The notes under the pieces are model-generated. The model saw only the letters and a list, made by a program, of their open reading frames with translations, did no database searches and was not told the DNA's origin. 40,888 nucleotides of DNA, from contig CAJCIO010000068.1 in assembly GCA_903970465.1 (NCBI GenBank), positions 1 to 40,888 on the forward strand, read 5' to 3'. The DNA comes from Gammaproteobacteria bacterium. Its GTDB lineage: Bacteria > Pseudomonadota > Gammaproteobacteria > Pseudomonadales > Pseudomonadaceae. Positions 15,822 to 35,829 of the stretch are shown here, piece after piece (position 1 is the stretch's first letter; every line of letters begins with the position of its first letter). Position numbers and translations under genes: made by a program.

Positions 15822-15975
15822 CGGGAGCACTCCTTATCTTTATCGGGATCTGTAACAGAATATTGCAAATCCCCGCCAGCATACCGTAAAGGCTCTGGGG
15901 TGAGCGGTTGCTCGTCCAATGGAGCGGGTTGTAGAGGGAATAGGCAGCGTTTCGAGGGCGGCCCAGGGCAGGTCG

Positions 15976-20304: not shown

Positions 20305-20463
20305 GGCGGAAAATCTGATCCTGACGCTGCTGCGCGCAAAGCAACCGGGGCGTCTTTTGACCCGATCGTCCCTGGTTATTTGCCGGTAGTGCCACTTTTT
20401 ATGCTTGCTGAAACGTTTCTTCGAGTCTATAAAAAGGGCACAACTCCAAGAAAGGCTGCTGTC

Positions 20464-21678
20464 ATGACCCCGCTCAAACTCGTTGTTGCCCTCAGCGCAC
20501 TGTCCGCTGCCTCCCACGCCATGGCCTGGGATTACGTTCTGCTCGACACCGACAAAGCCGCCCAGAACTGGCAGGTCACCAGCCAGTCACTCGGCGTAAA
20601 AACCGACAAACCCTTCAGCGTCACCCTGCGCACCTTGCACGGAGGTCGGCAGGAGGGTGTCAGCATCGTCGACATCGATAACGGCACGATGAAACTCTCG
20701 GTTGTGCCGACCCGCGGCATGAACGTCTTGCATGCCTCTGTCGGTAATGTGCGCATGGGCTGGGATTCGCCCGTCAAGGAAGTGGTCAACCCGTCCTTCA
20801 TCGAACTCAATGGCCGCGGCGGTCTGGGCTGGCTCGAAGGTTTCAATGAGATGGTCGTTCGCTGCGGGTACGAATGGGTCGGCCACCCCGGCATCGACAA
20901 TGGCGAACTGCTGACCCTGCACGGTCGGGCCGCCAACATTCCTGCGAGCAAAGTGACCCTGCACATCGATGAAAAACCCCCGTACGCCATCACCCTGCGC
21001 GGCGAGCTGAAAGAGCAGGCGTTCAAGAAGGTCGACTTCTCCGTCGCGACCGAACTGGTCACCGAACCCGGCAGCGTAGCGTTCGCCCTCAACGACACTC
21101 TGACCAACAACGGCGACTATCCGAAGGAATATCAGGCGCTGTATCACAGCAACTTCAGCACCCCGTTCCTTGAACAGGGCGCTCGTTTTGCCGCGCCGGT
21201 GAAACAGGTGTCGCCGTTCAACGACAAGGCCAAGGGTGATCTGGCCGACTGGCAAACCTACCGCGCACCCACCAAGGACTACGACGAAACGGTTTACAAC
21301 GTGGTGCCGTATGCCGACGCCAAGGGCGATACGTTGACCGTATTGCACAACAAGGCCGGCAGCCTGGGTGTTTCGGTGGGTTTCAACACTCAGACGCTGC
21401 CGGTGTTTTCCCTGTGGAAAAACACCGACACCCAAGGCCAGGGCTATGTCACCGGGCTGGAGCCGGGGACGAGTTTTTCCTACAACCGCCGTTATCAGCG
21501 GCCTCTGAACCTGGTACCGACCATTGGGCCGAAGGAGCACAAGCTGTTTCATGTCAGCTACAGCTTGTTGGCGGATAAAGCGGCGGTGGATAAGGCCTTG
21601 AAGCAGGTGAGCGAGATTCAGGGTGGGCGGGAAACCGAGGTGCGGCAGACGCCGTTGGTTGATTTGACCAAGGAGTAA
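20464..21678 (+). CDS. Periplasmic DUF4432 (aldose 1-epimerase-like) protein
   Basis: A 404-residue protein with a signal peptide (MTPLKLVVALSALSAASHAMA). The body fits DUF4432 in the galactose-mutarotase-like superfamily: VVPTRGMNVLHAS, GWDSPVKEVVNPSFIEL, GGLGWLEGFNEMVVRCGYEW, LTLHGRAANIP, EYQALYHSNFSTPF and VTGLEPGTSFSYNR. Members are thought to bind or interconvert sugar anomers; biochemical proof is sparse. It is a distant paralogue of the cytosolic DUF4432 protein DeoX at 32477. I start at 20464, which gives a clean export signal; the frame upstream to 20380 would place extra residues before it. No transporter adjoins it. Confidence 0.8.
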   Translation: MTPLKLVVALSALSAASHAMAWDYVLLDTDKAAQNWQVTSQSLGVKTDKPFSVTLRTLHGGRQEGVSIVDIDNGTMKLSVVPTRGMNVLHASVGNVRMGWDSPVKEVVNPSFIELNGRGGLGWLEGFNEMVVRCGYEWVGHPGIDNGELLTLHGRAANIPASKVTLHIDEKPPYAITLRGELKEQAFKKVDFSVATELVTEPGSVAFALNDTLTNNGDYPKEYQALYHSNFSTPFLEQGARFAAPVKQVSPFNDKAKGDLADWQTYRAPTKDYDETVYNVVPYADAKGDTLTVLHNKAGSLGVSVGFNTQTLPVFSLWKNTDTQGQGYVTGLEPGTSFSYNRRYQRPLNLVPTIGPKEHKLFHVSYSLLADKAAVDKALKQVSEIQGGRETEVRQTPLVDLTKE

Positions 21679-21723: not shown

Positions 21724-21958
21724 ATGTTCGCGTGTCAATTTGTTCAGGGGGCGCCAGCGTGCGCACGATCTTCAGGCCTCAGCGAAGGGCGGCCTTTTGA
21801 GGGAGCGGCATGACGCCTTTTGACGATTTTTTTCTCGGATTGATTACCAGCAGAGGCAATTGGGGGGCCTCTGGTCGAAAGCGGACACTCGTGAATAGCG
21901 CTACGCCCACAGGAGCGGACGGTGGTCCAGTAGTGCGTGACATCGGGGGCTTGAAATA

Positions 21959-21972
21959 CTCAGTATACTGAG
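21959..21972. promoter_or_regulatory. Palindromic candidate operator for the MarR regulator (mobA promoter)
   Basis: CTCAGTATACTGAG is a perfect 14-bp palindrome ending 51 bp before the mobA start codon, in the AT-rich promoter region. MarR-family regulators bind short palindromes of this kind, and a MarR gene is the next gene in the same unit. The symmetry is seen directly; binding is inference. Confidence 0.55.
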
Positions 21973-22023
21973 CATATTGTAATGGAGCTTTGCATTCCTC
22001 AAAAAACAACAAGGACAATGCCC

Positions 22024-23904
22024 ATGCAATTTCATCTCAATGGTTTTCAGGTTGGCGATCCAGAAGTACATCCCGCCGAGCTATCGCCCCCGGGCTTGCC
22101 CGACTTGGTTGACGTGCTTATCGTCGGTAGCGGCCCTGCCGGTCTGGTCCTGGGGGCGCAGTTGGCGCGATTCCCGAACATTGTGACCCGCGTGGTCGAA
22201 CGCCGCTGCGGCCGTCTGCAATTGGGGCAGGCGGATGGTATTGCCTGCCGCACCGTCGAGATGTTCAATGCGTTCGGCCTGGCGGAAAAACTGGTCCGCG
22301 AAGCCTACTGGGTCAATGAGACAGCGTTCTGGCGACCCCAGGCAGATAATCGTCAAAGCATCGAGCGCACAGGCCGGGTGCAAGACACCGAGGATGGCCT
22401 CTCGGAGTTTCCCCATGTCATCGTCAACCAAGCGCGCATTCAGGATTACCTGCTCGACAGCATGCTCAAGTCGCCCCAGCGTCTTGAGCCCGACTACAAC
22501 CTGGAACTGGTCGACGTTACCCGTGACGATCACGCTACTCATCCGGTGCTCGCAACCCTCAACACCGCTGACACCGAGCAGACCGTGCAAGTGCGTGCTC
22601 GCTATCTGGTGGGCTGCGACGGGGCGCGCAGCAAGGTTCGTGCTGCCATTGGCCAGCAACTGCGTGGTGATGCTGCCAATCATGCCTGGGGTGTGATGGA
22701 CGTACTGGCGGTGACCGACTTTCCGGATATCCGGCTCAAAGTCGCGGTGCAATCCGCCATGGCGGGGAACATGATCATGATCCCCCGTGAAGGCGGGCAT
22801 CTGGTGCGCATGTATGCGGACCTGGGCGAGGTTACCGAGCAAAACCGCGCGGCCATTCGAGCGACCAGTGCCGAGCAATTGATCGCGACTGCGCAACGTA
22901 TCCTGAGCCCTTACACGCTGGAGGTGAAAAGTGTCGCCTGGTTCTCGGTTTACGAGGTCGGCCAGCGCCTGACCGATCGTTTTGATGATGCGATCGACGG
23001 TTCGGGCCAGCTCCGCGAACCGCGAATCTTTATCGCGGGTGATGCCTGTCACACCCACAGCGCCAAGGCCGGGCAGGGGATGAATGTTTCGATGCAGGAC
23101 GCGTTCAATCTGGGCTGGAAGCTCGCGGCCGTGCTCGAAGGTCGCAGCCCGCCGGACCTGCTGGTCAGCTATTCACAAGAGCGCCAACCGGTAGCGCAAG
23201 AGTTGATCGGCTTCGACAAGGAGTGGTCAGCCATGATCGGCGCGCGGCCCAAGGACCCATTGAATCCGTCGGCTGGCGGGATCGATCCGACTGAACTGCA
23301 GGCGTATTTCGTCAAGGCGGGTCGCTACACTGCCGGTGTTGCGACGCACTATCCCGCGGGCCCGCTGACCGGCCGGAATACCTGGCAAGGTCTTGCCCAG
23401 GGGCTGGCGATCGGTACGCGGTTTCACTCTGCGCCCGTCATTCGCGTGGCCGATGCGCGGCCGGTGCACCTGGGGCATGCCGCGACCGCCGATGGTCGCT
23501 GGAGGCTGTACGCGTTTGCCGATGCTTCGGGCAGGGCACTGGCGAATCTGTGCGAGTACCTGCTTAACGATCCGGCTTCGCCAGTGCGGCAGTTCACCCC
23601 ACCTAGTGCAGACCTGGACAGCGTGCTGGACGTTCGTGCGGTATTCCAGCAACCTCATCGCGAGATCAGGGTCGAGCAATTGTCGGGCATCCTGCTACCG
23701 CACAAGGGCCGCTACGGGCTGATCGATTACGAGAAAGCTTTTACCGTAGACCCGGCATCGAACATCTTCACGGTCCGAGGCATCAATGCTCAACAGGGAG
23801 CGATGGTGCTGGTGCGGCCGGATCAGTACATCGCCCATGTTCTGCCACTGGACGGCTACCTCGAGCTGGAGGCATTCTTGAAGCCGATTTTTATCCCGCA
23901 ATAG
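22024..23904 (+). CDS. mobA: FAD-dependent 3-hydroxybenzoate 4-monooxygenase (MobA-like)
   Basis: A 626-residue flavoprotein hydroxylase. FAD motifs: GSGPAG at 35-40, YLVGCDGARSKVR with Asp199, and the GD motif FIAGDACHTHSAKAGQGMN with Asp340. The C-terminal thioredoxin-like domain (about 450-626) with RPVHLGH, DGRWRLYAFAD and RPDQYIAHVLPL marks the phenol-hydroxylase-like group. Sequence details, including the start MQFHLNGF, GQADGIACRT and GRVQDTEDGLSEFPHVI, match my memory of Comamonas MobA, which converts 3-hydroxybenzoate to protocatechuate. The ATG at 22024 has AAGGA 8 nt upstream; ATGs at 21982 and 22018 are less well placed. The MarR gene follows after 13 bp. Hydroxylation of related 3-hydroxylated benzoates cannot be excluded. 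Confidence 0.85.
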   Translation: MQFHLNGFQVGDPEVHPAELSPPGLPDLVDVLIVGSGPAGLVLGAQLARFPNIVTRVVERRCGRLQLGQADGIACRTVEMFNAFGLAEKLVREAYWVNETAFWRPQADNRQSIERTGRVQDTEDGLSEFPHVIVNQARIQDYLLDSMLKSPQRLEPDYNLELVDVTRDDHATHPVLATLNTADTEQTVQVRARYLVGCDGARSKVRAAIGQQLRGDAANHAWGVMDVLAVTDFPDIRLKVAVQSAMAGNMIMIPREGGHLVRMYADLGEVTEQNRAAIRATSAEQLIATAQRILSPYTLEVKSVAWFSVYEVGQRLTDRFDDAIDGSGQLREPRIFIAGDACHTHSAKAGQGMNVSMQDAFNLGWKLAAVLEGRSPPDLLVSYSQERQPVAQELIGFDKEWSAMIGARPKDPLNPSAGGIDPTELQAYFVKAGRYTAGVATHYPAGPLTGRNTWQGLAQGLAIGTRFHSAPVIRVADARPVHLGHAATADGRWRLYAFADASGRALANLCEYLLNDPASPVRQFTPPSADLDSVLDVRAVFQQPHREIRVEQLSGILLPHKGRYGLIDYEKAFTVDPASNIFTVRGINAQQGAMVLVRPDQYIAHVLPLDGYLELEAFLKPIFIPQ

Positions 23905-23917
23905 AAGGCGCTCAATT

Positions 23918-24355
23918 TTGCCGGTCGACACCCCCAGCAGGATCATCGTGCATACCGGCAACTTGATACGCCGGGCACAGCAACGTCACGTGGCCATCTG
24001 GTTGCGTGAAGTGTCTGCCGAAGTCACCAGTGTGCAGTTCGCTGTGCTGCTGGTGCTGGAACAACGGCCCGGTGTCAGCCAGCGTGAACTGGGCGACGAA
24101 TTGGACCTGGACCGCTCCACGGTCGGCGAACTGGCTACGCGGATGATGCGTAACGGTGCGGTCCAGCGGGTCAGCGATCCGCAGGACAAGCGACGCATGA
24201 CCTTGTACCTGACTGCGCAGGGGCAGGCGCAGTTGAACGCGTTGCGGCCGAGCGTCGAGCGCGTCGAGCAACTGTTGACTGAGCCACTGAGCGCTGAAGA
24301 GCGCGACATCTTGCGTGGTCTCGTCGAGCGCTTGCTCAGCGCAGAGGATCAGTAG
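23918..24355 (+). CDS. mobR: MarR family regulator of the mobA unit (MobR-like)
   Basis: A 145-residue regulator with the MarR winged helix: TSVQFAVLLVLEQRPGVSQ, then RELGDELDLDRSTVGELATR (recognition helix around DRSTVGELATRM), and the wing VSDPQDKRRMTLYLT. MarR proteins repress catabolic genes until an aromatic ligand binds; Comamonas mobA is controlled by such a protein. Here the gene lies downstream of mobA in the same unit, with 13 bp between them, so it would autoregulate through the palindrome at 21959. It appears to use a TTG start, preceded by AAGG about 10 nt upstream; I see no better ATG or GTG without losing the first helix. Confidence 0.8.
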   Translation: MPVDTPSRIIVHTGNLIRRAQQRHVAIWLREVSAEVTSVQFAVLLVLEQRPGVSQRELGDELDLDRSTVGELATRMMRNGAVQRVSDPQDKRRMTLYLTAQGQAQLNALRPSVERVEQLLTEPLSAEERDILRGLVERLLSAEDQ

Positions 24356-24530
24356 CCGTCTCGCCCTGTCCCGCACGCTCGCTGCGGGTCATTCGCCACC
24401 ACCAAACCTTATCCACCGACCCGCCGCCTCCAGCAGTGGACGCGGCATGTTGCCGATGAAAAAAACTCGATTCAGACGTAATGAATTGTCGCGTTCAGGC
24501 AAGGCTGTCTCGCTGGTGAAAGATCTGGCT

Positions 24531-24542
24531 GGCATTAATGCC
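24531..24542. promoter_or_regulatory. Palindrome upstream of the aromatic transport/cleavage operon
   Basis: GGCATTAATGCC is a perfect 12-bp palindrome ending 62 bp before the first gene of the operon at 24605. The surrounding region has no gene. It is a candidate regulator site, but the operon's own AraC protein would more usually bind direct repeats, so the partner is unclear. Confidence 0.35.
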
Positions 24543-24604
24543 TAGAGTGCAGTGGCAGAGGAGCCAAGGCTCCATCGCTCATAATTCAAACAATAGAGCT
24601 CACC

Positions 24605-25591
24605 ATGAAAAGACCCTTTGCCTATCCGTGCATGGCGCTGGCGTTGACCGTCGCCCTGCCTCCCGCGGTATACGCGGTAACGCCGTCGGTCAGTGAACCG
24701 GCGGGTATAAACCTCGGGGGAACCAGTTTTTACGATGGCTTTGCCGGACCACCCGGATTGAGCCATCTGATGTACCTCAAATACGATTCGGCTCAGTCGT
24801 TCCTGGGCGCTAAGGGTCATCAAAACCCGGCCCTCGACGACCCAAAGCTGACTGTGACGACGTTGCTCAACCAGTTCAGCTATTACTCGCCGAACAGTAT
24901 CGGTCTGGGGGCTCATCCGGGTTGGAGCCTGATCGTGCCCATCGTCTCTCTCGATGCCGATTTTGGACCTGCCGGTGCGCAGCTCAAGGACAACGGTACG
25001 GGGCTGGGCGATGTCGTGACCGGTCCGCAACTTCAATTCGACCCCATCGTCGATCAGTTCGGCCGTCCGGTGTACGTCCAAAGGTTTGCCATGGACATGA
25101 TCTTGCCCACCGGCAAGTACGACGAGCACAAGGACTTCAATCCGGGCTCGCATTTCTATTCCATCAATCCCTATTGGGCTGCCACGGTGATGCCCGCTCC
25201 CCGTTGGGAAGTGAGCTGGCGTCTGCATTACCTCTACAACTTTCGCAACGACAAGCCGGCCAGCAGCGCACCTCTGGATTATCAGGGCCAGTCCGTGGAT
25301 GACACGCAGGCGGGGCAAGCAGCGTGGGCAAACTTCACCGCGTCCTATGAGGTACTGCCCAAGGTGTCAGTGGGACTCAACGGTTACTACTTCAAACAGA
25401 TCAGCGATGACCGCATCAACGGCCACCGCCAGCAGGATTCCCGTGAGCGGGTGTTGGGCCTGGGCCCTGGAGCCTTCTGGAAAATCAGCGAGAGCGAGGG
25501 GATGTGGTTCAACGTGTATCACGAATCCGCCGTGGAAAATCGCGCCAAAAACGAGTTCTCCGTACAGGTGCGCTTCGCACATGCCCTCTGA
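24605..25591 (+). CDS. Outer-membrane MetA/SphA-type protein for hydrophobic aromatic uptake
   Basis: A 328-residue exported protein with a signal peptide (MKRPFAYPCMALALTVALPPAVYA). The rest is rich in alternating aromatic and polar strands with a C-terminal Phe-rich strand (FSVQVRFAHAL), the beta-barrel pattern of the phenol-degradation MetA family (PF13557). Recognisable parts are GINLGGTSFYDGFAGPPG, DMILPTGKYD and YSINPYWAATVMP. Such proteins are found in many hydrocarbon and aromatic degradation clusters and are thought to bring hydrophobic substrates across the outer membrane. It is the first gene of a five-gene unit, with 21 bp to the MFS gene. Confidence 0.82.
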   Translation: MKRPFAYPCMALALTVALPPAVYAVTPSVSEPAGINLGGTSFYDGFAGPPGLSHLMYLKYDSAQSFLGAKGHQNPALDDPKLTVTTLLNQFSYYSPNSIGLGAHPGWSLIVPIVSLDADFGPAGAQLKDNGTGLGDVVTGPQLQFDPIVDQFGRPVYVQRFAMDMILPTGKYDEHKDFNPGSHFYSINPYWAATVMPAPRWEVSWRLHYLYNFRNDKPASSAPLDYQGQSVDDTQAGQAAWANFTASYEVLPKVSVGLNGYYFKQISDDRINGHRQQDSRERVLGLGPGAFWKISESEGMWFNVYHESAVENRAKNEFSVQVRFAHAL

Positions 25592-25612
25592 GGAACATGA
25601 GGTATTGCCGTT

Positions 25613-26836
25613 ATGCAAGCAATCGAACGAGTGAACAGCAAAGGCACCTTGTTCTCACTGTGCCTGATCATGGTGGTGTCATTGGGCACCCTGCAGATTC
25701 AGCCAATGCTGGGCGGCGCTTTCGTTGACCAACTTGGCTTTTCCCTCAGTGAGATCGGTCCAATTTTCGCCGCCGAGCTGATCGCCATGGCGGTCGCTTG
25801 TGGGGCGAGCGCCTTGTTGATGCCGCGCATCAATCGTCAGCGTTACGCCTTGATCGCACTAGGGTTGCTGGTGATCAGCAATATTGCCAGTGGCTACGTC
25901 AGTGGCTTTGCCGAACTGGTGATATTGCGGCTGTGCGCAGGATTGGGCGGCGGCGCAGCCATGGCAGTGGTCTACGCCAGCGCCGCGCTCCGGTCCTCGA
26001 AAGACGCCACCTTTGCCGTCATCAACATTGGCAATCTGGTCTGGGGCGTAATGCTCGTGTCGAGCATGCCGCTGATTCTGGGGCGAGGAGGGGTATCGGC
26101 CTGTTTTCTGTTATTGGGCGTGGCCGGGGTGATTGCAGCCTTGTGCGTACGGCGATTGCCGGCGCGCTACGTGGAGGCGGGTAAAGGTCAGGCACAACCA
26201 GTGGGCCGCCTGGGGCTAGCCGCCATACTGCTGATCGCCCTGTTCGCCTTGCTGTTTTTCGGGCATTCGGCGCTGTGGGTCTATCAGGAGCGCATTGGCA
26301 AGAGCCTGGGACTGGCACCCGAGCAGAACGGCATGATCCTGGGCGCCAGTGTGCTGGCCGGCGCGGTGGGCGCAGGCCTGGCCGGCCTGATCAAGCGACA
26401 GCTGGGTCTGTTGGTACCTCAATTGATCGGCTTTGGTACTGCGCTAGTTGCCACCTTGATGATGGTCTACGGCACCAGCACATTGGCGTTCGCCTTGACG
26501 GCGGGCTTGATTCACATGGTGTGGTTTTTCTGCCTGCCCTACCTGTTGTCCATGGCCGCTGAGCTGGACCCCAGCGGTCGTCTGGCCGGTCTGGGCAACT
26601 CGGCCATTTTCGTCGGCCAAGGGCTAGGGCCTTTCGCGGCGGCGCTGGTAGTCGGCGATGGCAATTTTCGCGCTGTCGGCTGGTTGGCGGCCGCCGCGTA
26701 TGTGCTTGCGCTCCTGGCTTCGGTGTTGTTGGTGTGGGCTTTCAAAGGGGGCGGCCAGCGCAGTAAAACTCGGTCCATCAGCAGCGCTCACCCGGCCCTT
26801 GCATCCGTCGAACTGAACCGTCCTGTACAACCCTAG
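25613..26836 (+). CDS. MFS transporter, probable aromatic-substrate importer
   Basis: A 407-residue carrier with about 12 membrane spans. Examples are GTLFSLCLIMVVSLGTLQ, LIALGLLVISNIASGY, GLAAILLIALFALLFFG and WLAAAAYVLALLASVLLVW. The N-terminal half includes the loop MPRINRQRYALIALG between spans 2 and 3 and a Gly/Ala-rich AGLGGGAAMAVVY segment typical of MFS helix packing. It does not clearly fall in the AAHS aromatic-acid symporter group. Its place between an outer-membrane aromatic protein and a ring-side-chain cleaving oxygenase suggests uptake of the same substrate across the inner membrane. A GAGGT site lies 9 nt before the start. Confidence 0.82.
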   Translation: MQAIERVNSKGTLFSLCLIMVVSLGTLQIQPMLGGAFVDQLGFSLSEIGPIFAAELIAMAVACGASALLMPRINRQRYALIALGLLVISNIASGYVSGFAELVILRLCAGLGGGAAMAVVYASAALRSSKDATFAVINIGNLVWGVMLVSSMPLILGRGGVSACFLLLGVAGVIAALCVRRLPARYVEAGKGQAQPVGRLGLAAILLIALFALLFFGHSALWVYQERIGKSLGLAPEQNGMILGASVLAGAVGAGLAGLIKRQLGLLVPQLIGFGTALVATLMMVYGTSTLAFALTAGLIHMVWFFCLPYLLSMAAELDPSGRLAGLGNSAIFVGQGLGPFAAALVVGDGNFRAVGWLAAAAYVLALLASVLLVWAFKGGGQRSKTRSISSAHPALASVELNRPVQP

Positions 26837-26845
26837 AGGTGCCTG

Positions 26846-28324
26846 ATGACTACTTCCTTCCCGCAGACCCCGGAATTCTCCGGGGCCCTTTACACGCCAA
26901 GTCGCGCTGAGGTCGATGTGTTCGATCTGGAAGTCGAGGGCACGCTGCCCACCGGGATCAACGGCACGTTCTATCAGGTGTCTCCCGACCCGCAATATCC
27001 ACCGATGTTGGGGCATGACATCTTCTTTAATGGCGACGGTCTGGTTAGCGCATTTTTTTTCGACAAGGGCACTGTTTCGTTACGCCGCCGCTATGTGCAG
27101 ACCGACCGTCTGCTGGCCCAGCGCCGCGAAGGCCGCTCGCTAAACGGCATCTATCGCAATATCTATACCAATGATCCGAAGGCGGCCGGCAGCAATACCA
27201 CCGCCAACACCACGGTGCAGGCGTACAACGGCGTGTTGCTGGCAATGAAGGAAGACGCGCTGCCCTATGCTCTGGATCTGCGCACCCTGGAAACGCTGGG
27301 GGTGCATGATTTCGGAGGGCAGATCCTGTCGCAGACCTTTACCGCTCACCCCAAGGTCGACCCGCTTACCGGCAACCTCCTGGCGTTCAGCTACGAAGCC
27401 AAAGGCGATGGCTCACCTGACCTGGCCTACTTCGAGCTGGCACCAGATGGCACCTTGTTGCACGAAATCTGGTTCCAGGCGCCTTACGCAGCCATGGTCC
27501 ACGACTTTGCCGTGACCGCACATCATGTGGTTTTCCCGCTCATTCCACTGACGGTCGATGTTGCACGGATGAAGGATGGCGGCCAGCATTTTCAATGGCA
27601 ACCGGATCTGCCCCAGTTGTTCGCGGTGGTCCCCCGGCAAGGTTCCAGCCGCGATGTACGCTGGTTCAAAGGGCCTGCCAACGGCTTTCAGGGGCACACG
27701 CTTAACGCCTTTGAGGAGGACGGACTGATCCACGTCGACATGCCGGTCACCGGTGGCAATATCTTCTACTTCTTCCCCCAGGCCGACGGGTTCGTGCCAT
27801 CGCCCGAAACACTGAGTTCCCAGCTGATGCGCTGGACTTTCGATCTATGTGCCGATTCGGACAGGGTCGAACCCGTAGCACTCAATGATTTTCCGTGCGA
27901 GTTTCCGCGTTGCGATGACCGTTATATCGGGCGCCCGTATGAACACGGCTTCGTCCTCGCCTTTGACCCCCAGCGGCCCTATAATCCGGCTAACGGCCCG
28001 ATGCCCTTTCAGTTCTTCAATCTGCTGACGCACATCAACGTGCGTACCGGCAAGAGTGAAAGCTGGTTTGCAGGCGACAGCGAGTGCTTCCAGGAGCCCA
28101 TCTTCGTACCTCGCTCCACTGACGCTGGCGAGGGCGATGGTTACGTGATCGCTTTGCTCAACCATCTAGGCAACCACACCACAGAGCTGCTAGTGCTCGA
28201 CAGCTTTCAAATGGAGGCCGGCCCCATTGCGCGCATCAAATTGCCGCTACGGATGCGCATGTCCCTGCATGGCTGCTGGTCGCAGGCTTTTCCCCCACAG
28301 ACACGCCACTTGGCGGAGGAATAA
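26846..28324 (+). CDS. Carotenoid-cleavage-type oxygenase (lignostilbene/isoeugenol dioxygenase-like)
   Basis: A 492-residue non-haem iron oxygenase of the carotenoid cleavage family. The four Fe-binding histidines are visible: His168 (TAHPK), His219 (MVHDF), His284 (QGHTLNAF) and His475 (LHGCW). The start FPQTPEFSGALY and the segments FFNGDGLVSAFFF, GIYRNIYTND and LAMKEDALPY closely follow bacterial lignostilbene dioxygenase. Tyr103 and Lys135 correspond to the Tyr and Lys that hold the substrate's 4-hydroxyl group in that enzyme and in isoeugenol monooxygenase. It should cleave the C=C bond of a 4-hydroxyphenyl-substituted alkene or stilbene, giving aromatic aldehydes. GAGGT lies 5 nt before the ATG; the aldehyde dehydrogenase follows after 4 bp. 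Confidence 0.9.
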   Translation: MTTSFPQTPEFSGALYTPSRAEVDVFDLEVEGTLPTGINGTFYQVSPDPQYPPMLGHDIFFNGDGLVSAFFFDKGTVSLRRRYVQTDRLLAQRREGRSLNGIYRNIYTNDPKAAGSNTTANTTVQAYNGVLLAMKEDALPYALDLRTLETLGVHDFGGQILSQTFTAHPKVDPLTGNLLAFSYEAKGDGSPDLAYFELAPDGTLLHEIWFQAPYAAMVHDFAVTAHHVVFPLIPLTVDVARMKDGGQHFQWQPDLPQLFAVVPRQGSSRDVRWFKGPANGFQGHTLNAFEEDGLIHVDMPVTGGNIFYFFPQADGFVPSPETLSSQLMRWTFDLCADSDRVEPVALNDFPCEFPRCDDRYIGRPYEHGFVLAFDPQRPYNPANGPMPFQFFNLLTHINVRTGKSESWFAGDSECFQEPIFVPRSTDAGEGDGYVIALLNHLGNHTTELLVLDSFQMEAGPIARIKLPLRMRMSLHGCWSQAFPPQTRHLAEE

Positions 28325-28328
28325 AGAA

Positions 28329-29807
28329 ATGAGTACAGCACAGGTATCGGCCTACCACGTGAAGGGTCACCAATACATCAATGGCCGATGGCAGACCGGA
28401 CGTTCGCAACGCCGGCTGGACGATCGCGATCCCTTCACAGGGCAAGCGCTACTGGAAATGTCCATGGCTTCAGTGGCCGACGTCGACCAGGCCTACCGGG
28501 CTGCAGAGCATGCCCAAGTCGCTTGGGCCGCCTGCCCGCCCGTGCAGAAACGCGCATTGCTCAACCGTTTGGCCGTGTTGATCGAAAGCCGCAGCGAAGA
28601 AATCACTGCCTGGTTGATCCGCGAATCAGGGAGCACTCGCCTCAAGGCCGGTTTTGAATGCGCCAGCGCGGCGAATCTTGCCCGTGAGTGCGCCAGCATG
28701 CCCTTCGAGGTGGAGGGCAGGATTCTCACCAGCCACAAGCCCGGGGAACAGAGTTTCGTATTTCGCGAACCTTTGGGCGTTGTCGGGGTGATCAGCCCGT
28801 GGAATTTTCCACTTTATCTGAGCATGCGCTCGGTGGTCCCGGCCATTGCCCTGGGTAATACCGTGGTGCTCAAGCCGGCCAGCGACACGGCAGTCACCGG
28901 TGGCCTGCTGATTGCGCATTTGTTCGAAGAGGCCGGATTCCCGCCCGGCGTGCTGAACGTGGTAGTGGGTGCGGGTTCCGAAATAGGTGATGCATTCGTC
29001 GAGCACCCAGTGCCCAGCTTCATATCGTTCACCGGATCCACCGATGTCGGACGCAATGTCGGACGTATCGCCAACGGTGGTCAGTTCATCAAGCGTGTGG
29101 CGCTTGAACTGGGCGGCAACAGTCCGTTGGTGGTCCTCGATGATGCCGATATCGAGCACGCTGCTCATGCGGCAGTAGTAGGGCGCTTCCTTCATCAGGG
29201 GCAGATCTGCATGAGCGTCAACCGCATCATCGTCGATCAAGCGCTGTATCCAGAGTTCGCCGAGCAAGTGGTTGCGCGGGTCAGGCAACTGAAAGTCGGT
29301 GACCCCAATGAGCCCGACACGGTTATTGGCCCGGTGATCAACCAACAGCAACTGCAAGGTTTGCTGCGCAAGATCGACAATGCCAGCTCTGCAGGGCTAA
29401 GACTGCTGGCCGGCGGGTCGGCCTCGGGACTGCTGCTGCCGCCCCATGTGTTCGGCGACGTGCCGGGCTCCCAGGAACTGGCGGTGGAGGAGACCTTCGG
29501 CCCGATACTGCCATTGATCGTCGCCCGCGACGCTGACCATGCACTGGCACTGGCCAATGCGGGAGAATATGGACTGTCCAGCGCGGTGTTCACCCAAGAC
29601 ATGGCGCGAGGGCTGGATTTTGCCAGGAAGATCGTCGCAGGTATGACCCACATCAACGACATCACGGTTGATGATCAGCCCAACGCGCCGTTTGGTGGCG
29701 AGAAGAACTCGGGTCTTGGCCGCTTCAATGGTCACTACGCGCTGGACGAGTTCACCCGCGCCCATTGGGTCACCTGGCGTGCAGGAAAGCCGCAATACCC
29801 GTTTTGA
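28329..29807 (+). CDS. NAD(P)-dependent aromatic aldehyde dehydrogenase (vanillin dehydrogenase-like)
   Basis: A 492-residue aldehyde dehydrogenase. The catalytic Cys294 lies in FLHQGQICMSVNR and the general base Glu260 in VALELGGNS. Cofactor parts are GVISPWNFPLYLSM, LKPASDTAVTGG and FTGSTDVGRNVG. The C-terminal motif FGPILPLIV and the ending FGGEKNSGLGRFNGHYALDEFT are typical of benzaldehyde/vanillin dehydrogenases. It would oxidise the aldehyde made by the oxygenase just upstream to a benzoate. The ATG at 28329 comes 4 bp after the oxygenase stop; an earlier frame start at 28227 would overlap the oxygenase and has no family likeness. The exact aldehyde is unknown. Confidence 0.9.
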   Translation: MSTAQVSAYHVKGHQYINGRWQTGRSQRRLDDRDPFTGQALLEMSMASVADVDQAYRAAEHAQVAWAACPPVQKRALLNRLAVLIESRSEEITAWLIRESGSTRLKAGFECASAANLARECASMPFEVEGRILTSHKPGEQSFVFREPLGVVGVISPWNFPLYLSMRSVVPAIALGNTVVLKPASDTAVTGGLLIAHLFEEAGFPPGVLNVVVGAGSEIGDAFVEHPVPSFISFTGSTDVGRNVGRIANGGQFIKRVALELGGNSPLVVLDDADIEHAAHAAVVGRFLHQGQICMSVNRIIVDQALYPEFAEQVVARVRQLKVGDPNEPDTVIGPVINQQQLQGLLRKIDNASSAGLRLLAGGSASGLLLPPHVFGDVPGSQELAVEETFGPILPLIVARDADHALALANAGEYGLSSAVFTQDMARGLDFARKIVAGMTHINDITVDDQPNAPFGGEKNSGLGRFNGHYALDEFTRAHWVTWRAGKPQYPF

Positions 29808-29865
29808 CAGTGCTAGGATGAGGGCAGGAGGCCATCAGCTTCCCTACAACAAGAGAAGGTGTGTG

Positions 29866-30834
29866 ATGAGTGCATTGTCCTGCGTGAGTACAGAGCAGTT
29901 TGGAATGTCCGATCGGTTGACGAAATGGCAGGAATTTCTGAGTGTTCACGTGGGGCGAACGCCCGAGGCCGTGCGCCGTCATGAACTGACCCATTTCCAA
30001 CCTCTGGACGGCACCTCGTTCACCGGGCGGCTGGAGTATGGCGACCTCGGCAATCTGCACTTCTGTCGAATGGTCAGCTCACCCCACCGCTTTTCTCGTC
30101 AACTCAGTGTCGGCGTCGCGCCCACTGACGCGCCCTGGTTACTGATTCTGCAGATGCGCGGCATCAGTCACTACCACCAGGGCGCACGTTCTCATAGCGT
30201 GTCCGCCGACGAGATCATGCTCATCGACAGTGGCAAACCGTTTGAGGTAACCAGTCCCAATGGCTGCGAGTACCTGATGCTGTTATGCGATGGCATCTCC
30301 GGCAACGTCGCCGCACCGTCCGATCTTCACCTGAACAATCGGGCGGGTCTGGGCAAAATGTTGCACCACCTGATTACAGATGCCTATAGCCAGTACACCT
30401 TGCTCAACGCGCGCGCTGCTCAGGCGATCGGGCACAGCATCGGCGCTGTAGTGGGTAACCTGATTGAAAACAGTGTCACCGCCCCCAAGCTTGTGCATGA
30501 TTTCCGGCACTTCAAAAAACACCGAATCAAAAATTTCATCGAGGAGCGTCTGGCTGAACCGGAGTTGACGATCGAGATGATCGCGCTGGCGCAAGGTTGC
30601 TCGACGCGCACTCTTCATCGTCTGTTCGAGGACGAACTGGGCTGCAGTCTCAGCGAGTACATCTGGCATCGTCGGCTAATGCGCTGTGCTGAAGATTTGC
30701 GTAACCCTGTGTTGGCAGACCAGTCCATCACCGATGTCGCGCTATCGTGGGGCTTTGTGAGCAGCTCGCACTTCAGCCGGGCTTTCAAGATTGCGTTCGG
30801 TCTGACGCCGCGGTTGTTTCGTGACGCGAGATGA
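29866..30834 (+). CDS. AraC family activator of the aromatic cleavage operon
   Basis: A 322-residue regulator. Residues about 1-200 form an AraC-binding-like-domain-2 sensor (DRLTKWQEFLSVHVG, HRFSRQLSVGVAP, LLILQMRGISHY). The C-terminal 100 residues carry two helix-turn-helix motifs: LTIEMIALAQGCSTRTLHRLF and SITDVALSWGFVSSSHFSRAF, followed by GLTPRLFRD. This layout is shared with the AraC-type regulators of isoeugenol and vanillin-type gene clusters. It lies 58 bp downstream of the dehydrogenase on the same strand, with AGAAGG before the ATG at 29866, so it may be transcribed partly with the operon it controls. The effector is unknown. Confidence 0.88.
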   Translation: MSALSCVSTEQFGMSDRLTKWQEFLSVHVGRTPEAVRRHELTHFQPLDGTSFTGRLEYGDLGNLHFCRMVSSPHRFSRQLSVGVAPTDAPWLLILQMRGISHYHQGARSHSVSADEIMLIDSGKPFEVTSPNGCEYLMLLCDGISGNVAAPSDLHLNNRAGLGKMLHHLITDAYSQYTLLNARAAQAIGHSIGAVVGNLIENSVTAPKLVHDFRHFKKHRIKNFIEERLAEPELTIEMIALAQGCSTRTLHRLFEDELGCSLSEYIWHRRLMRCAEDLRNPVLADQSITDVALSWGFVSSSHFSRAFKIAFGLTPRLFRDAR

Positions 30835-30917: not shown

Positions 30918-31598
30918 TCAATAACCCGCGCCCACACCCGCCCCCGTCACGATCGCAATCCCGGAACTGGTCCCCAGCCGAGTCGCACCCGCTTCGATCA
31001 TCGCTCTAGCCGTAGCCACATCCCGAACGCCGCCGGACGCCTTCACACCGATGTCCGGCCCCACCACCCGGCGCATCAGCGCCACATCTTCAAGCGTTGC
31101 GCCGCTGCGGCTGAAGCCGGTGGAGGTTTTGACGAACGCTACTCCCAAGTCGCGACAGATCTCGCAGGCGCGCACCTTCTGCGCCTCGTCGAGCAGGCAG
31201 GTCTCCAGAATCACTTTCAGCGGCACCTTGCCACAGGCGTGCAGCACGGCGGCGATGTCGTCGCGGACTTCATCGAACAGGCCGTCCTTGAGCCAGCCGA
31301 TGTTCAGCACCATGTCGATTTCCTGCGCCCCGGCGGCGATCGTCAGGGCGGCTTCCGACGCCTTGCTCGCACTCAGCCCGGCGCCCAGCGGAAAGCCCAC
31401 CACGGCGCAGACCTTGACGGCAGAACCGGCCAGGCGTTGCGCGGCAAACGGCACCTGGCTCGAGTTCACGCACACCGAGTAGAAGCCATGCTCTCGGGCT
31501 TCAGCGCAAAGTGTGGCAATCTGCTCTCGGCTGGCGTCTGCGGCCAGCAAGGTGTGATCGATGGCCTGGGCCATTGCAGCGGGTTCGAGCGAATTCAT
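30918..31598 (-). CDS. deoC: Deoxyribose-phosphate aldolase
   Basis: A 226-residue class I aldolase that splits 2-deoxyribose 5-phosphate into acetaldehyde and glyceraldehyde 3-phosphate. The Schiff-base Lys157 lies in [14 protein letters not shown], the relay Lys186 in [10 protein letters not shown] and Asp95 in [11 protein letters not shown]. Other marks are [10 protein letters not shown] at the start and VVGFPLGAG. The start at 31598 gives the standard length; 31643 would add residues unlike the family. Divergent from the deoR-type gene, with a shared 102-bp control region that holds a candidate operator at 31645. Confidence 0.94.
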
Positions 31599-31644
31599 CG
31601 AGCGATTCCTGTCATCAGTAAAAGCACATGGGTTGATACCCATA

Positions 31645-31670
31645 AGTTATAAAATTAACACTTGGTGTTA
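31645..31670. promoter_or_regulatory. Candidate DeoR operator between deoC and deoR
   Basis: AGTTATAAAATTAACA (31645-31660) matches the 16-bp core of the palindrome upstream of deoK (35881-35896) at 12 of 16 positions, including the outer GTTAT and TAACA half-sites. It overlaps a second symmetry, TAACAC-TTG-GTGTTA (31656-31670). Its place in the divergent deoC/deoR control region suggests one regulator for all three units. Binding is inferred. Confidence 0.6.
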
Positions 31671-31700
31671 CTGTAGCGACACCACCAACGGATTGCCGGA

Positions 31701-32471
31701 ATGCCCGTGGACGTCAAGAAAACCGACCGAATCAAACAGATCCAACAGGCCCTGCAAGATCAAAAAGCTATCCATCTGCGCGAGATGGCGGCGTTGCTTG
31801 AAGTGTCCGAAATGACCTTGCGCCGCGACCTGAGCCGCCACCCCGAGCAATTTCGCCTGCTGGGCGGCTACATCACCCGCGCCCACGACGATCCGGAACC
31901 GGGGGACTACCGCGTCAGTGAGCAGGACGCCCGGCACGTCGAGGAGAAACGCCGTATCGGCAAGCTGGCCGCTGCCTTTATCCAGCCGGGGGACACGGTG
32001 TTCTTCGACTGCGGCACGACGATCCCCTTCGTGGTCGACTTCATCCCCGACGATCTGGAATTCACCGCGGTGTGCAACTCGCTCAACGTGCTGCTCAAGC
32101 TGCAGCAGAAACCGCATTGCAGCATCGTCCTCTGTGGCGGCACTTTCCACCGCAAGAACCAGGTGTTCGAGAGCCATGCCGAAGCCAGCATCCTGGATGG
32201 CGTGCGCCTGAGCTGGGCGTTTGTCTCGGCGGCCGGGGTCAGCCTGGAGTGCGGTGTCACCTGCTTCAATTTCCACGAAGTGGAGGTCAAGCAGAAGGTC
32301 ATGCGCCAGGCCCGGCAATGCCTGCTGCTGGCCGACCACTCCAAGTTCGACGCGGTGCGTACGGCGCACTTCGGGGCCCTGAGCGACTTCCATTGCGTGG
32401 TCAGCGACAAGAAGATCCCACGCAGCTACCGCGAGGCCATCGAGGCCAGCGGGGCGCAGTTGGTGTTGTAA
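31701..32471 (+). CDS. deoR: DeoR family repressor of deoxyribose genes
   Basis: A 256-residue regulator. The N-terminal DeoR helix-turn-helix (about 7-60) reads DRIKQIQQALQDQKAIHLRE, then MAALLEVSEMTLRRDL. The C-terminal sugar-phosphate-sensing domain has FFDCGTTIPFVVDF, LNVLLKL, LCGGTFHRKNQVF and LLLADHSKFDA, as in E. coli DeoR, which senses deoxyribose 5-phosphate. It sits between deoC and deoXPK, and its probable operators lie in both control regions. The gene ends 5 bp from the convergent deoX stop codon, so the two transcripts must overlap. Confidence 0.88.
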   Translation: MPVDVKKTDRIKQIQQALQDQKAIHLREMAALLEVSEMTLRRDLSRHPEQFRLLGGYITRAHDDPEPGDYRVSEQDARHVEEKRRIGKLAAAFIQPGDTVFFDCGTTIPFVVDFIPDDLEFTAVCNSLNVLLKLQQKPHCSIVLCGGTFHRKNQVFESHAEASILDGVRLSWAFVSAAGVSLECGVTCFNFHEVEVKQKVMRQARQCLLLADHSKFDAVRTAHFGALSDFHCVVSDKKIPRSYREAIEASGAQLVL

Positions 32472-32476
32472 CGGCA

Positions 32477-33544
32477 TCATGGTTGCAGCGCCCTGCGTTC
32501 AGGCGCGCTGAGGTAGCCGGTGGTCAGGCTGAAGTGGGCGCTGGCACCAGGTGCGAGGCTGCGCACGTTGCCCTTGGCGAGTTCGGCGCGGTAGCCCTCC
32601 GGCTCGCAGGTGGCCGGCAAGACGAACGCCGCCACTTGCTGGTCAGGGTTGTGCAGGATCCAGCGCGCGGCGTGCTCAAATTGCTCTGGACGGTAGCGGG
32701 TGTAGAACGCCGCGCCCTCAGGGTGTTCAAGGAAGAAGTGCGCCTGCCCATGGGCATCGCTGCGCACGTCATCGAAGAAACAGACGATCTCCGGATCATA
32801 CAGCGCAGGCGAGTCGAGCACCTTGAGGCTGGCCGGGTCCTGGCTGAGTTCGGCGATGTAGGCGGTCCAGGCCGGCGTGGGGCGGACGTGGGCCGGCACG
32901 CTGGCACGTACTCGGGTGCGTTCGCACCCCAGCGGCTGGGTCAGGCGGCCGCCATCGACGTAGGCGTAGTTCATGTGCGCCATGTACATCAGGTCCATGG
33001 CCTTGCCGGCCAGGTTGACCACCTGCATGCCGATCTCGAACAACCCGCTGGCCGGACGCAGGGTCACACTCGGACTGGCTCGGTAGTGGTCGCCAAAGCC
33101 TTGCACGTATTCGTAGGTGCCGCCGAGGCGCAAGTAAGCGCCGCACGCGTCTTCGCCCACCTCAAGCCAGGCATCGTCCATCGGCGCGCAGGGCATCTCG
33201 CCGTGCAGCGCATGATCATCCTCGGGCCCCGGGCAACCGTTGCGCAGCAGGCCGCTGTGGAACATGAAACAGCCGTAGGTGCCGATCACGCTGGCACTGG
33301 GCCGGGGCTGGGTGAACATGTTGTGCATGGTCAAATCCACGCCATCGAACTCGGCCGACCAGATCATTTGCCCCTGCCAGGGCAGGATCACCAGCTTGCC
33401 GCGGCTGTTTTCCAGTGACAGCGCCTTGACCCCGCTGGGGTACGTCCAGGCGCGCACGCTGAAATCCTCTGACTCGAGCAGCAGCCGACTGGCCTGGTCG
33501 CATAGCTGCGGGTACAGCGGCAGGCGTAACGGTCGGGCACTCAT
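32477..33544 (-). CDS. deoX: DeoX-type DUF4432 aldose epimerase-like protein
   Basis: A 355-residue cytosolic protein of the DUF4432 / galactose-mutarotase-like group. Marks: VRAWTYPSGVKALSL, GKLVILPWQGQMIWSAEFDG, GTYGCFMFHSGLLRNGCPGPEDDH, LHGEMPCAPMDD and LMYMAHMNYAYVDGG. Salmonella deoQKPX contains a protein of this type (DeoX) with a presumed mutarotase role on deoxyribose. The start at 33544 overlaps the deoP stop in an ATGA, which indicates translational coupling; the long open frame reaching 34060 is only an unused extension into deoP. It is the last gene of the deoK-deoP-deoX unit. Confidence 0.87.
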   Translation of the reverse strand: MSARPLRLPLYPQLCDQASRLLLESEDFSVRAWTYPSGVKALSLENSRGKLVILPWQGQMIWSAEFDGVDLTMHNMFTQPRPSASVIGTYGCFMFHSGLLRNGCPGPEDDHALHGEMPCAPMDDAWLEVGEDACGAYLRLGGTYEYVQGFGDHYRASPSVTLRPASGLFEIGMQVVNLAGKAMDLMYMAHMNYAYVDGGRLTQPLGCERTRVRASVPAHVRPTPAWTAYIAELSQDPASLKVLDSPALYDPEIVCFFDDVRSDAHGQAHFFLEHPEGAAFYTRYRPEQFEHAARWILHNPDQQVAAFVLPATCEPEGYRAELAKGNVRSLAPGASAHFSLTTGYLSAPERRALQP

Positions 33545-34872
33545 TGCGCGACCGCCGCGGCTGAGCTCGCCAGGACCGGTTGCGGCTGCCGCATGCAGCG
33601 CACCGCGTACAGCACGATCGCCACGAAGCACAGCAACGGCACGCTGTAGGCGATCTGCATGTTGCCGCCGTTGGCATCGCTGAGCAGGCCCTGGAAGATC
33701 GGCATCACGCCGCCGCCGACGATGCTCATCACCAACAACGAGCCACCGACGCCGGTGTCTTCGCCGAGGCCGTCGATGGTCAGGCCATAGATGGTCGGCC
33801 AGCAAGGCCCCAGGAACACACTGACCCCCACGGCTGCGTACACTGCCGTGATGTTCGGCACCAGGATGGTGTAGGCCAGCAGTACGATGCACAGCACGCC
33901 ATACAGGGCGAGCACTTTGGCGGGGTGCATCTTGCGCATCAGCAGGTTGGCGATCATCTTGCCGATAAAGTAGGCGGCAAAGGTGGTCAGCAGGAACCAC
34001 GAGGCACTGCGCTCGTTCATGCCGCCCATTTGCATGGCCAGGCGAATAGTGAAGCTCCACACCCCGACCTGCGCGCCCACGTACAGGAACTGCGCCAGCA
34101 CGCCGAAGCAGAAGCGCGGATTGCGTCGCAGGCGGCCGAGGCTCTGGCCGATGCTGGCCCGCGGTTCACTGACGGTGCGGTTGCCCTTGCAGGCAGGGAA
34201 GCGGGTGATGGCGATCAGGATGAACATCAGGATGAGTACCGCGATCATCCACTTGTACGGCAGCAGGGTCGATTGGATCATCTGCAATTGCTGCACCGCC
34301 GCATCGCTGGCGCTCATGTGGGTCAACTGCTCGCGGGTGGCGTCGGTGTCCTTGAACATCACAAAGCTGCCGACGTACACCCCGGTCATGGCGCCGAAGG
34401 GGTGGAAGGTCTGCGAGATGTTCAAGCGCCGCGTGCCGGTCTCCCGTGGCCCCATCAGGGTCGAATAGGTGTTGCACGCCGTCTCGAGAAACGACAGGCC
34501 AGCGGCGATGACGAACAGCGCCATCAGGAACATGCCGTATTTGGCGGTTGACGCCGCCGGGAAGAACAGCGCACAGCCGAACAGGTAGAGCATCAGGCCG
34601 ATGAGGATGGTGGTCTTGTAGCTGAAGCGGCGCACCACAAGGGCCGCGGGAATAGCGACGAAAAAATACCCCAGATAGAACGCCGACTGGACGAAGGCGG
34701 TCTGGAAGTCGCTGAGCAGGAAGGCCTTCTTGAAGTGGGCGATCAGCACGTCGTTCATGCTTGCCGCCGCCGCCCACAGGGCGAAGATGCTGCAGAGCAG
34801 GAGGAAGGCGAACCACGGCGTGCGGTTCAGATAGAAGCCGTCCGGGGTTTGTTGCAGCGCAGGCTTGTTCAT
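33541..34872 (-). CDS. deoP: 2-Deoxyribose:H+ symporter, FucP-type MFS
   Basis: A 443-residue carrier with about 12 membrane spans, of the fucose permease (FHS) subfamily. Marks: FALWAAAASMNDVLIAHFKKAFLLS, FQTAFVQSAFYLGYFFVAIP, FLETACNTYSTLMGP and the ISQTFHPFGAMTGVYVG loop, then FFLGPCWPTIYGL-like sequence near the end. This matches the gene called deoP in Salmonella, whose product imports 2-deoxyribose. It lies 30 bp after deoK and overlaps deoX by 4 bp, so all three are one operon. The substrate is inferred from DeoK and DeoC beside it. Confidence 0.87.
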   Translation of the reverse strand: MNKPALQQTPDGFYLNRTPWFAFLLLCSIFALWAAAASMNDVLIAHFKKAFLLSDFQTAFVQSAFYLGYFFVAIPAALVVRRFSYKTTILIGLMLYLFGCALFFPAASTAKYGMFLMALFVIAAGLSFLETACNTYSTLMGPRETGTRRLNISQTFHPFGAMTGVYVGSFVMFKDTDATREQLTHMSASDAAVQQLQMIQSTLLPYKWMIAVLILMFILIAITRFPACKGNRTVSEPRASIGQSLGRLRRNPRFCFGVLAQFLYVGAQVGVWSFTIRLAMQMGGMNERSASWFLLTTFAAYFIGKMIANLLMRKMHPAKVLALYGVLCIVLLAYTILVPNITAVYAAVGVSVFLGPCWPTIYGLTIDGLGEDTGVGGSLLVMSIVGGGVMPIFQGLLSDANGGNMQIAYSVPLLCFVAIVLYAVRCMRQPQPVLASSAAAVAQ

Positions 34873-34902
34873 TATTGTTCTCCGCGAAAATGCAGGTGGG
34901 TA

Positions 34903-35829
34903 TCAGCTCGCCGAGGCGTCGAGGAATCGCGCGAACGTGGGAGCATCGGGATAGGAAGATTGCGTGCCCAGGCCGGTGACCGAGCAGGCCGAATAGGCGA
35001 CCGCCCGGTGCATGGCCTGGCGGATATCGCCGTCCTGGCTCCAATGCCGAGCGAAGCAGCCAATGAACGCGTCACCAGCACCGGTGGTGTCGCGCGCCTC
35101 GACCTTGACCCCCGGCACTTGCCACTCGCCTTCGGCGCCGACGTACAGCGCGCCTTGTTCGCCCAGCGTGACGATGACGTGGCGTACGCCCTCCGTCACC
35201 AACTGACGCGCGGCCTGCGCGGCCTCTTCGGCAGAGGTCACAGGCTGGCCGCTGATGAGGGCCAGCTCGCTCTCGTTGGGGATCAGAAAGTCCAGCTGCG
35301 CCAGGTGCTCGCGGCTCAATCCGGCCAAGGCCGGGGCAGGGTTGAGCAACACCGCGATGCCATGCCGATGAGCGAACTCGATGGCGTGATAGACGGTCGC
35401 CAGTTCGATCTCCAGTTGCAGCACGATCAAGGTGCAATCGCGTAGCGGCGCCTGCGCACGGTCGATATCGGCCGGGCACAGGTGGGCGTTGGCGCCTTTG
35501 ACGATGAGGATGCTGTTGTGGGAATTCGCCTGGACGAAGATCGGCGCCACGCCGCTGGACACGCCCGGCACCCGGTCGACGAAACGCGTGTCGATGCCCA
35601 GCCTCTGGAAATTGGCCAGGGTGGTGTCGGCGAAGGCGTCGTCGCCCACCTTGCTGAGCATCAACACGTCGGCGCCCAGTAGCGCTGCGGCGGCCGCCTG
35701 GTTGGCGCCCTTGCCGCCGCAGCCCATGGCAAAACGCGGCGCTTCGAGGGTTTCGCCCTGGGCGGGCATGCGTTCGATGTAAGTGATCAGGTCGACCATG
35801 TTGCTGCCGATGACTGCAATCTTGCTCAT
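34903..35829 (-). CDS. deoK: Deoxyribokinase (PfkB/ribokinase family)
   Basis: A 308-residue sugar kinase. PfkB motif 1 is MGCGGKGANQAAAAALLGA and motif 2 DTTGAGDAFIGCFARHW, with the catalytic Asp in GAGDAF. The start NMVDLITYIERMPAQGETLE, the segment VSSGVAPIFVQANSHNSILI and the end GLGTQSSYPDAPTF follow Salmonella DeoK more closely than RbsK. It phosphorylates 2-deoxyribose at C5 to feed DeoC. It is the first gene of the deoK-deoP-deoX operon. The start codon is preceded by GAGGT 10 nt upstream, and a perfect palindrome lies about 50 bp upstream. Confidence 0.9.
   Translation of the reverse strand: MSKIAVIGSNMVDLITYIERMPAQGETLEAPRFAMGCGGKGANQAAAAALLGADVLMLSKVGDDAFADTTLANFQRLGIDTRFVDRVPGVSSGVAPIFVQANSHNSILIVKGANAHLCPADIDRAQAPLRDCTLIVLQLEIELATVYHAIEFAHRHGIAVLLNPAPALAGLSREHLAQLDFLIPNESELALISGQPVTSAEEAAQAARQLVTEGVRHVIVTLGEQGALYVGAEGEWQVPGVKVEARDTTGAGDAFIGCFARHWSQDGDIRQAMHRAVAYSACSVTGLGTQSSYPDAPTFARFLDASAS

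Follow-up and report, generated by a model that had tools for sequence, protein, structure and literature searches.

The locus described here raises the question of how a Pseudomonas predicted to split a hydroxystilbene would dispose of the second, meta-hydroxylated ring. It lies in a stretch of 40,888 nucleotides (contig CAJCIO010000068.1 of assembly GCA_903970465.1; hereafter the window), where a mobA-marR pair is followed by a metA-MFS-LSD-ALDH-araC unit, LSD denoting a stilbene-cleaving oxygenase and ALDH an aldehyde dehydrogenase. Growth on plant stilbenes has been reported for bacteria, and Kurt, Minoia and Spain reportedly described in 2018 an Acinetobacter growing on resveratrol, with the stilbene as carbon source (cited in PMC8191317); we have seen no account of the use of the second, meta-hydroxylated ring by Pseudomonas. 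The reading that we prefer, with a probability of roughly 0.55, is that of a modular stilbenoid locus in which LSD and ALDH would split a hydroxystilbene and MobA would take the place of a ring-cleavage cassette of four genes. Enzymes such as LSD and MobA, and their reactions, are already known, and what is new is a cassette-less Pseudomonas stilbene operon adjoining mobA. In the literature searched, from which most subscription papers are missing, no description was found of an LSD-MobA combination or of the four-gene cassette alongside LSD. Set against its relatives, the locus points to competing answers within a single genus, either a conserved extradiol cassette or MobA in its stead, and the comparison places a PbLSD-type enzyme in a full genomic pathway context.

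The seven genes and the oxygenase

All seven genes proposed in the initial annotation were confirmed on the + strand:

22024..23904, +, mobA: FAD-containing 3-hydroxybenzoate 4-hydroxylase-like enzyme, 626 aa (PF01494 and PF07976)
23918..24355, +, marR: MarR-family regulator with TTG start, 145 aa (PF01047)
24605..25591, +, metA: Phenol_MetA_deg family protein, 328 aa (PF13557, 183.9 bits)
25613..26836, +, MFS transporter, 407 aa (PF07690, 61.7 bits)
26846..28324, +, LSD: stilbene-cleaving oxygenase of the RPE65/CCO family, 492 aa (PF03055, 435 bits)
28329..29807, +, ALDH: aldehyde dehydrogenase, 492 aa (PF00171, 516 bits)
29866..30834, +, araC: AraC-family regulator, 322 aa (PF12833 and PF14525)

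The best model for each protein scored from 50.8 bits (MarR, Pfam) up to 987.3 bits (MobA, NCBIfam), far beyond chance. The short gaps first given for the second unit were borne out (metA-MFS 21, MFS-LSD 9, LSD-ALDH 4 and ALDH-araC 58 bp), and the further gaps are 13 bp between mobA and marR and 249 bp between marR and metA. The active-site motifs claimed for the enzymes were likewise found in the translated LSD, MobA and ALDH. The gene called metA belongs to PF13557 and is not homoserine transsuccinylase; its product is probably an outer-membrane entry channel, and the MFS transporter probably serves the uptake of stilbenoids or other aromatics. ALDH contains LELGGNSP and GQICMS, which we take to be aldehyde dehydrogenase active-site motifs, and in most loci compared an ALDH gene lies within or adjoining the LSD operon.

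The oxygenase aligned with PbLSD, the lignostilbene dioxygenase of Pseudomonas brassicacearum (5V2D, PMC6097328), at 877 bits over 479 residues, with about 75-76% identity, and its identity to most orthologues in Pseudomonas is 74-77%. It has the four iron-binding histidines of the RPE65 domain (His168, 219, 284 and 475) and shares with PbLSD, in the same numbering, Phe61, Tyr103, Lys135 and Thr122. The first three of these are the Phe, Tyr and Lys expected of stilbene-cleaving oxygenases, for which Phe-59, Tyr-101 and Lys-134 are given as key catalytic residues in the abstract of PMC8191317. Against the NCBIfam equivalog model for lignostilbene-alpha,beta-dioxygenase (NF053778) the protein scored 562 bits, under the cut-off of 800, and so is not assigned to that equivalog. 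According to the accessible part of PMC6097328, which describes the PbLSD enzyme and does not discuss its operon, PbLSD in vitro converts resveratrol to 3,5-dihydroxybenzaldehyde and 4-hydroxybenzaldehyde; on lutein no activity was detected in vitro, and for lycopene and delta-carotene the E. coli experiments gave a weak, putative activity. The stilbene cleavage originally proposed for this gene is thus well supported through a characterised relative of 76% identity, and resveratrol is the kind of substrate that the product would be predicted to cleave. Lignin-dimer pathways, mainly of sphingomonads, likewise use an LSD-type cleavage of stilbenes to aromatic aldehydes, the stilbene there being formed inside the cell from lignin dimers (PMC12997858 and PMC8191317, both as available in part); PMC12997858 does not contain the term mobA.

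The same oxygenase family leaves room for a phenylpropene route, in which isoeugenol-type propenylphenols would be cleaved to vanillin and ALDH would yield vanillate, MobA being unrelated. The LSDs of TMY1009 and of P. putida IE27 are indeed cited as giving vanillin from eugenol (PMC8191317, available part; the title of the IE27 reference has isoeugenol). Nevertheless this route is very improbable here: the nearest characterised relative cleaves resveratrol and prefers it over carotenoids (PMC6097328, available part, in which isoeugenol is not mentioned), and the usual partner of these operons is a ring-hydroxylation and extradiol set.

The ring-cleavage cassette of related operons

A search for LSD in 398 Pseudomonas genomes (E below 1e-90) found it in 25, window genome included. 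The genus is taken to be Pseudomonas, as genomes grouped in the same genus have contig coordinates in common with named Pseudomonas records (G083, for example, with Pseudomonas sp. GM50). In 22 of the other genomes the protein is 73-84% identical to that of the window, and in all 22 a cassette of four genes lies in or beside the LSD operon, encoding a FAA-type hydrolase, an IclR regulator, an FAD hydroxylase resembling MhpA and a glyoxalase-fold extradiol dioxygenase. Nineteen of these genomes were mapped in regions L066-L085 minus L082, and three (G083, G282 and G395) were read as the same-coordinate regions L007, L010 and L013. Two cassette-less loci stand outside this count, L026, on a contig of 3.9 kb that stops within LSD, and L082, from genome G245; the raw cassette counts that include them are 15/16 and 19/20, for named and unnamed loci that overlap, several being the same genome. 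The usual order, found in 21 of the 22, is metA, MFS, LSD, hydrolase, IclR, hydroxylase, dioxygenase, ALDH and araC, while G394 has metA-MFS-LSD-araC on one strand and the cassette with ALDH on the other. In L007 the cassette occupies coordinates 11783-15998, its hydroxylase scoring 746.7 bits (cut-off 546) and its dioxygenase having HpaD as best model, below cut-off. In the LSD-carrying Pseudomonas compared here, the second ring appears to be normally processed through this cassette.

At the window locus the four genes are absent, and LSD and ALDH stand 4 bp apart as against about 4.4-5.3 kb in the relatives of usual order. The P. brassicacearum locus (L015), with an LSD of 75% identity, has the cassette that the window lacks. 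A search with the cassette hydroxylase through the entire genome, an assembly of 5.5 Mb and 201 contigs with a completeness of 99.96, had MobA itself as its best match (E 1.9e-28); the dioxygenase, hydrolase and IclR genes were not searched genome-wide, and relocation of the cassette to another part of the genome is accordingly ruled out for the hydroxylase only. Trees of LSD, AraC, MFS and MetA, built on 18-29 chosen loci, pair the window with G394 as its sister at support 1.00; in the ALDH tree the window does not group with G394, support being weak at that point. Because the sister G394 retains the cassette, its loss in the lineage of the window would be the simplest history.

Beyond these close relatives the cassette is variably present. 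It is absent from the mapped regions of G128 and G245 (L043 and L082), whose LSDs are 37-42% identical to that of the window (37-40% in G245). A Herbaspirillum locus (L027) has LSD with a similar cassette, and ALDH-LSD pairs with no cassette match were found in two Rhizobiaceae loci, in Xanthomonas, in Klebsiella and on a Pantoea plasmid. Such pairs without a ring cassette (as in L020, L021, L022, L028 and the Pantoea plasmid), together with the absence of the cassette in the window, fit the idea that LSD and ALDH merely disarm stilbene phytoalexins of plants or aldehydes without growth, the cassette having been lost as carbon use was not selected. We consider detoxification alone improbable, as the MFS and MetA-type genes are retained and pobA, pcaH and galA are present in the genome.

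MobA and the proposed exits for the two ring halves

Our preferred reading, in which MobA replaces the cassette, depends on what MobA can hydroxylate. The gene most likely starts at ATG 22024, which gives the MQFHLNGF beginning seen in 3-hydroxybenzoate hydroxylase of Comamonas testosteroni (2dkh), and not at the first ATG of the reading frame (21982). The protein has the FAD_binding_3 and phenol hydroxylase C-terminal domains, aligned with 2dkh at 770 bits (60.8% identity over the N-terminal 411 residues) and carries the equivalents of Asp75, His135, Lys247 and Tyr271 of 2dkh, which are found in 11/11 aligned sequences, 2dkh and the window MobA counted. We take these four to be key residues. 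The top NCBIfam model, NF006144, is that of a "phenol 2-monooxygenase" subfamily (987 bits, cut-off 560) and not a MobA equivalog. From these features the product is predicted to be a 3-hydroxybenzoate 4-hydroxylase-like enzyme. Like the window gene with its neighbouring marR, mobA of C. testosteroni presumably has a regulatory partner, MobR. The C. testosteroni enzyme is named 3-HBA 4-hydroxylase in the part of PMC3572157 at hand, and in the literature searched, including the available parts of PMC3915288, PMC3572157 and PMC9649394, no source was found for MobA activity on 3,5-dihydroxybenzoate.

Genes for both exits, protocatechuate and gallate, are present in the window genome. It contains pobA (690 bits, cut-off 538.7), pcaH (359 bits, cut-off 296.4) and, on contig C92, galA for gallate dioxygenase (818.9 bits, cut-off 412) and a gene for a GalC-type aldolase (393 bits, cut-off 179). 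Among 62 Pseudomonas genomes that we chose (28 carriers of LSD or MobA and 34 others), galA was found in six (G000, G022, G023, G245, G292 and G304). It is absent from the cassette-bearing sister G394, and its presence in the window genome and not there fits a gallate route. The initial annotation had proposed that resveratrol would end in gallate through a MobA-like step; with pobA, pcaH and galA at hand this is possible in the window genome, but it is not a general exit, as G128 has no galA. Both exits are consequently kept, with protocatechuate as the likely product from a 3-hydroxyphenyl ring and gallate from a 3,5-dihydroxyphenyl ring.

The pathway would then run as follows. A stilbene bearing a 4-hydroxyphenyl group would enter through the MetA-type protein and the MFS carrier, and LSD, by analogy with PbLSD, would split its central double bond into two benzaldehydes that ALDH could oxidise to two acids. 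The 4-hydroxybenzoate would pass through PobA to protocatechuate 3,4-dioxygenase, pobA and pcaH being present in the genome. On the meta-hydroxybenzoate half MobA would add a hydroxyl at C4, and the type of ring would decide between protocatechuate and gallate. Judging by promoter anatomy, AraC would drive the genes from metA to ALDH from a conserved element and MarR would repress mobA until hydroxybenzoate appears.

A broader and more tentative proposal, which we hold to be somewhat less likely true than false, is that stilbenoid operons in general consist of a fixed LSD and ALDH core with exchangeable ring-processing cassettes. In the lineage of the window MobA would have succeeded a lost extradiol cassette and would para-hydroxylate the resorcinol-type half of resveratrol to gallate, which would enter the GalA pathway; the pairing in G128 would serve a 3-hydroxyphenyl substrate, possibly a dihydrostilbene, ending in protocatechuate.

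Linkage and regulation of the two units

High-scoring MobA was found in 5 of the 398 Pseudomonas genomes and, at the level of the class, in 5 of 369, the window being counted in each. Around mobA in eight other genomes, LSD is nearby only in G128, where LSD (41-42% identity), ALDH (73%) and MobA (69-70%) lie in a row on the same strand, separated by 171 and 92 bp. The G128 LSD keeps the four histidines, the Tyr and the Lys, and has a Val where the window enzyme has Phe61. LSD and MobA are close neighbours in both genomes that carry the two, the window genome and G128. The MobA proteins of G116 and G292 are 81% identical to that of the window and the one of G128 is 70% identical; because the former are nearer, the LSD-MobA neighbourhoods of the window and of G128 likely arose independently.

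The G128 locus (L043 and L094, C1:1160000-1192000) also contains genes for AraC, a MetA-type protein, chemotaxis receptors, PobA and a second ALDH, and one for a flavoprotein resembling p-cresol methylhydroxylase (477.6 bits to 1dii). It is a candidate bibenzyl/stilbene locus, in which, as a speculation, the flavoprotein might first desaturate 4-hydroxybibenzyl to a stilbene.

Upstream of each of the two units of the window a putative control region was found:

21951..21980, +, predicted mobA promoter: TTGAAA, 18-nt spacer, TATTGT
21959-21972, perfect 14-bp palindrome CTCAGTATACTGAG within the spacer of the predicted mobA promoter
24487..24511, +, metA-promoter element TGKCGC..TCAGKCAA..CTGKCC, putative AraC-type activator site

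Position 21959, from which the locus had been taken to begin, is not a gene start and turned out to be the first base of the palindrome. CTCAGTATACTGAG occurs once in the window and is a probable MarR operator, supported by where it lies within the promoter and by its right arm, which recurs with the -10 region upstream of mobA in G116 and G292. The left arm differs in these two genomes, which counts against such a role. Perfect 14-bp palindromes alone are not rare, about 2.5 being expected in 40.9 kb by our arithmetic. Moreover, three promoter-like sites were found and the shuffled mean was 3.0, so that the assignment of the -35 and -10 boxes of mobA is weak. The mobA-marR pair is also present in G116, in G292 and on a Paraburkholderia plasmid, and MarR is probably a repressor of mobA. 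The best NCBIfam model of MarR is that of the Saro_0803 family, at 68 bits and below the cut-off of 200. Saro_0802 is the stilbene-cleaving oxygenase NOV1 (PMC8191317, available part), and a MarR gene may flank NOV1 too.

The pattern of the metA element was drawn up from the window and its relatives; at one mismatch it has a single place in the window, with 0.01 expected. Its core CAG[GT]CAA stands upstream of metA in 35 of the 37 loci with a metA match. The two without it are L019 and L043, the latter ending inside metA; L094, which holds the stretch upstream of this metA, also lacks the exact core and has, by eye, the similar sequence TGGCGCTCTTGAGCAACT. A weight matrix built from the sites of relatives (25 distinct non-window sequences) scored the metA site of the window at -2.2, behind one other, unrelated place at 16977 (0.05), and this low score indicates that the window copy is divergent. 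The element is a probable AraC-type activator site, and from its place we infer that AraC regulates the metA operon. Against the FeaR model AraC scored 151.6 bits, below the cut-off of 199.

Several of these results weigh against a functional link of MobA with stilbene cleavage. The two units carry different promoter elements, and no regulatory site common to both was found in the window, the metA element being absent from the mobA promoter; the sequence thus gives no evident sign of co-induction. LSD is missing from seven of the eight other mobA surroundings (G063, where 12.2 kb were examined, G116, G292, G457, G587, G621 and G692) and from the mobA locus of the Paraburkholderia plasmid. Two of the 398 genomes have both LSD and MobA, which leaves, without the window, one against about 0.24 expected (our arithmetic). 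Unlike the C. testosteroni enzyme, which has Val-Leu at positions 257-258, the window MobA, encoded beside a stilbene operon, has Met-Ile. The LSD of G128 is merely 41-42% identical and has Val for Phe61, and its substrate may differ; this genome also lacks galA.

Such points can be read as a chance neighbourhood, mobA-marR being a self-contained unit from 3-hydroxybenzoate to protocatechuate beside an independent, cassette-less stilbene operon. The mobA-marR pairs without a nearby LSD in G116, G292 and the Paraburkholderia plasmid agree with this, as do the separate mobA promoter with its MarR-type palindrome and without a metA element, and the near-chance co-occurrence in genomes. The LSD-ALDH-MobA run of G128 and a genome without the cassette hydroxylase, in which MobA is the nearest substitute, speak against it, and we regard chance as rather unlikely. 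The co-occurrence check is divided in the same manner: leaving the window out, the count (2 of 398 genomes with it) does not clearly exceed what independence predicts, and in both genomes the genes are close neighbours. The link between LSD and MobA suggested at the outset is therefore unproven, favoured by the missing cassette and by G128, and disfavoured by the separate promoters and the co-occurrence; it is probably more than neighbourhood. Each unit appears to be transcribed separately under a regulator of its own, and any coordination would run through metabolites.

In GC content neither the mobA unit (61.5%) nor the metA unit (59.2%) stands out as foreign from the flanks (60.3% left, 62.2% right). 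To the left lies a gene for a DUF4432 protein (window 20461-21678) with an apparent signal peptide by eye. This gene is present in 18 of 57 relatives, window genome included, and the protein is 84-96% identical in the 17 others, where other genes surround it. Of its neighbours in the window, none recurs beside it in these 17 loci except for 47% matches to ORF p18406 (L139 and L141), so no empty insertion site can be defined.

On plasmids LSD was found in 34 records and MobA in 40; among the matches listed (30 of each) both are present only in Novosphingobium sp. RL4, at least 0.7 Mb apart. The conjugative plasmid of P. putida YC-AE1 (L096, NZ_CP047312.1) carries LSD (41%) and ALDH between IS91 elements, accompanied there by a P450 and a ferredoxin-type protein, and LSDs of equal identity (41%) are encoded on plasmids of Sphingobium yanoikuyae and Sphingomonas bisphenolicum. 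These plasmid LSDs presumably point to bisphenol A catabolism. On the - strand of the window, at 30918-35829, genes for DeoC, DUF4432, MFS and PfkB-family kinase proteins probably form a deoxyribose-type sugar operon.

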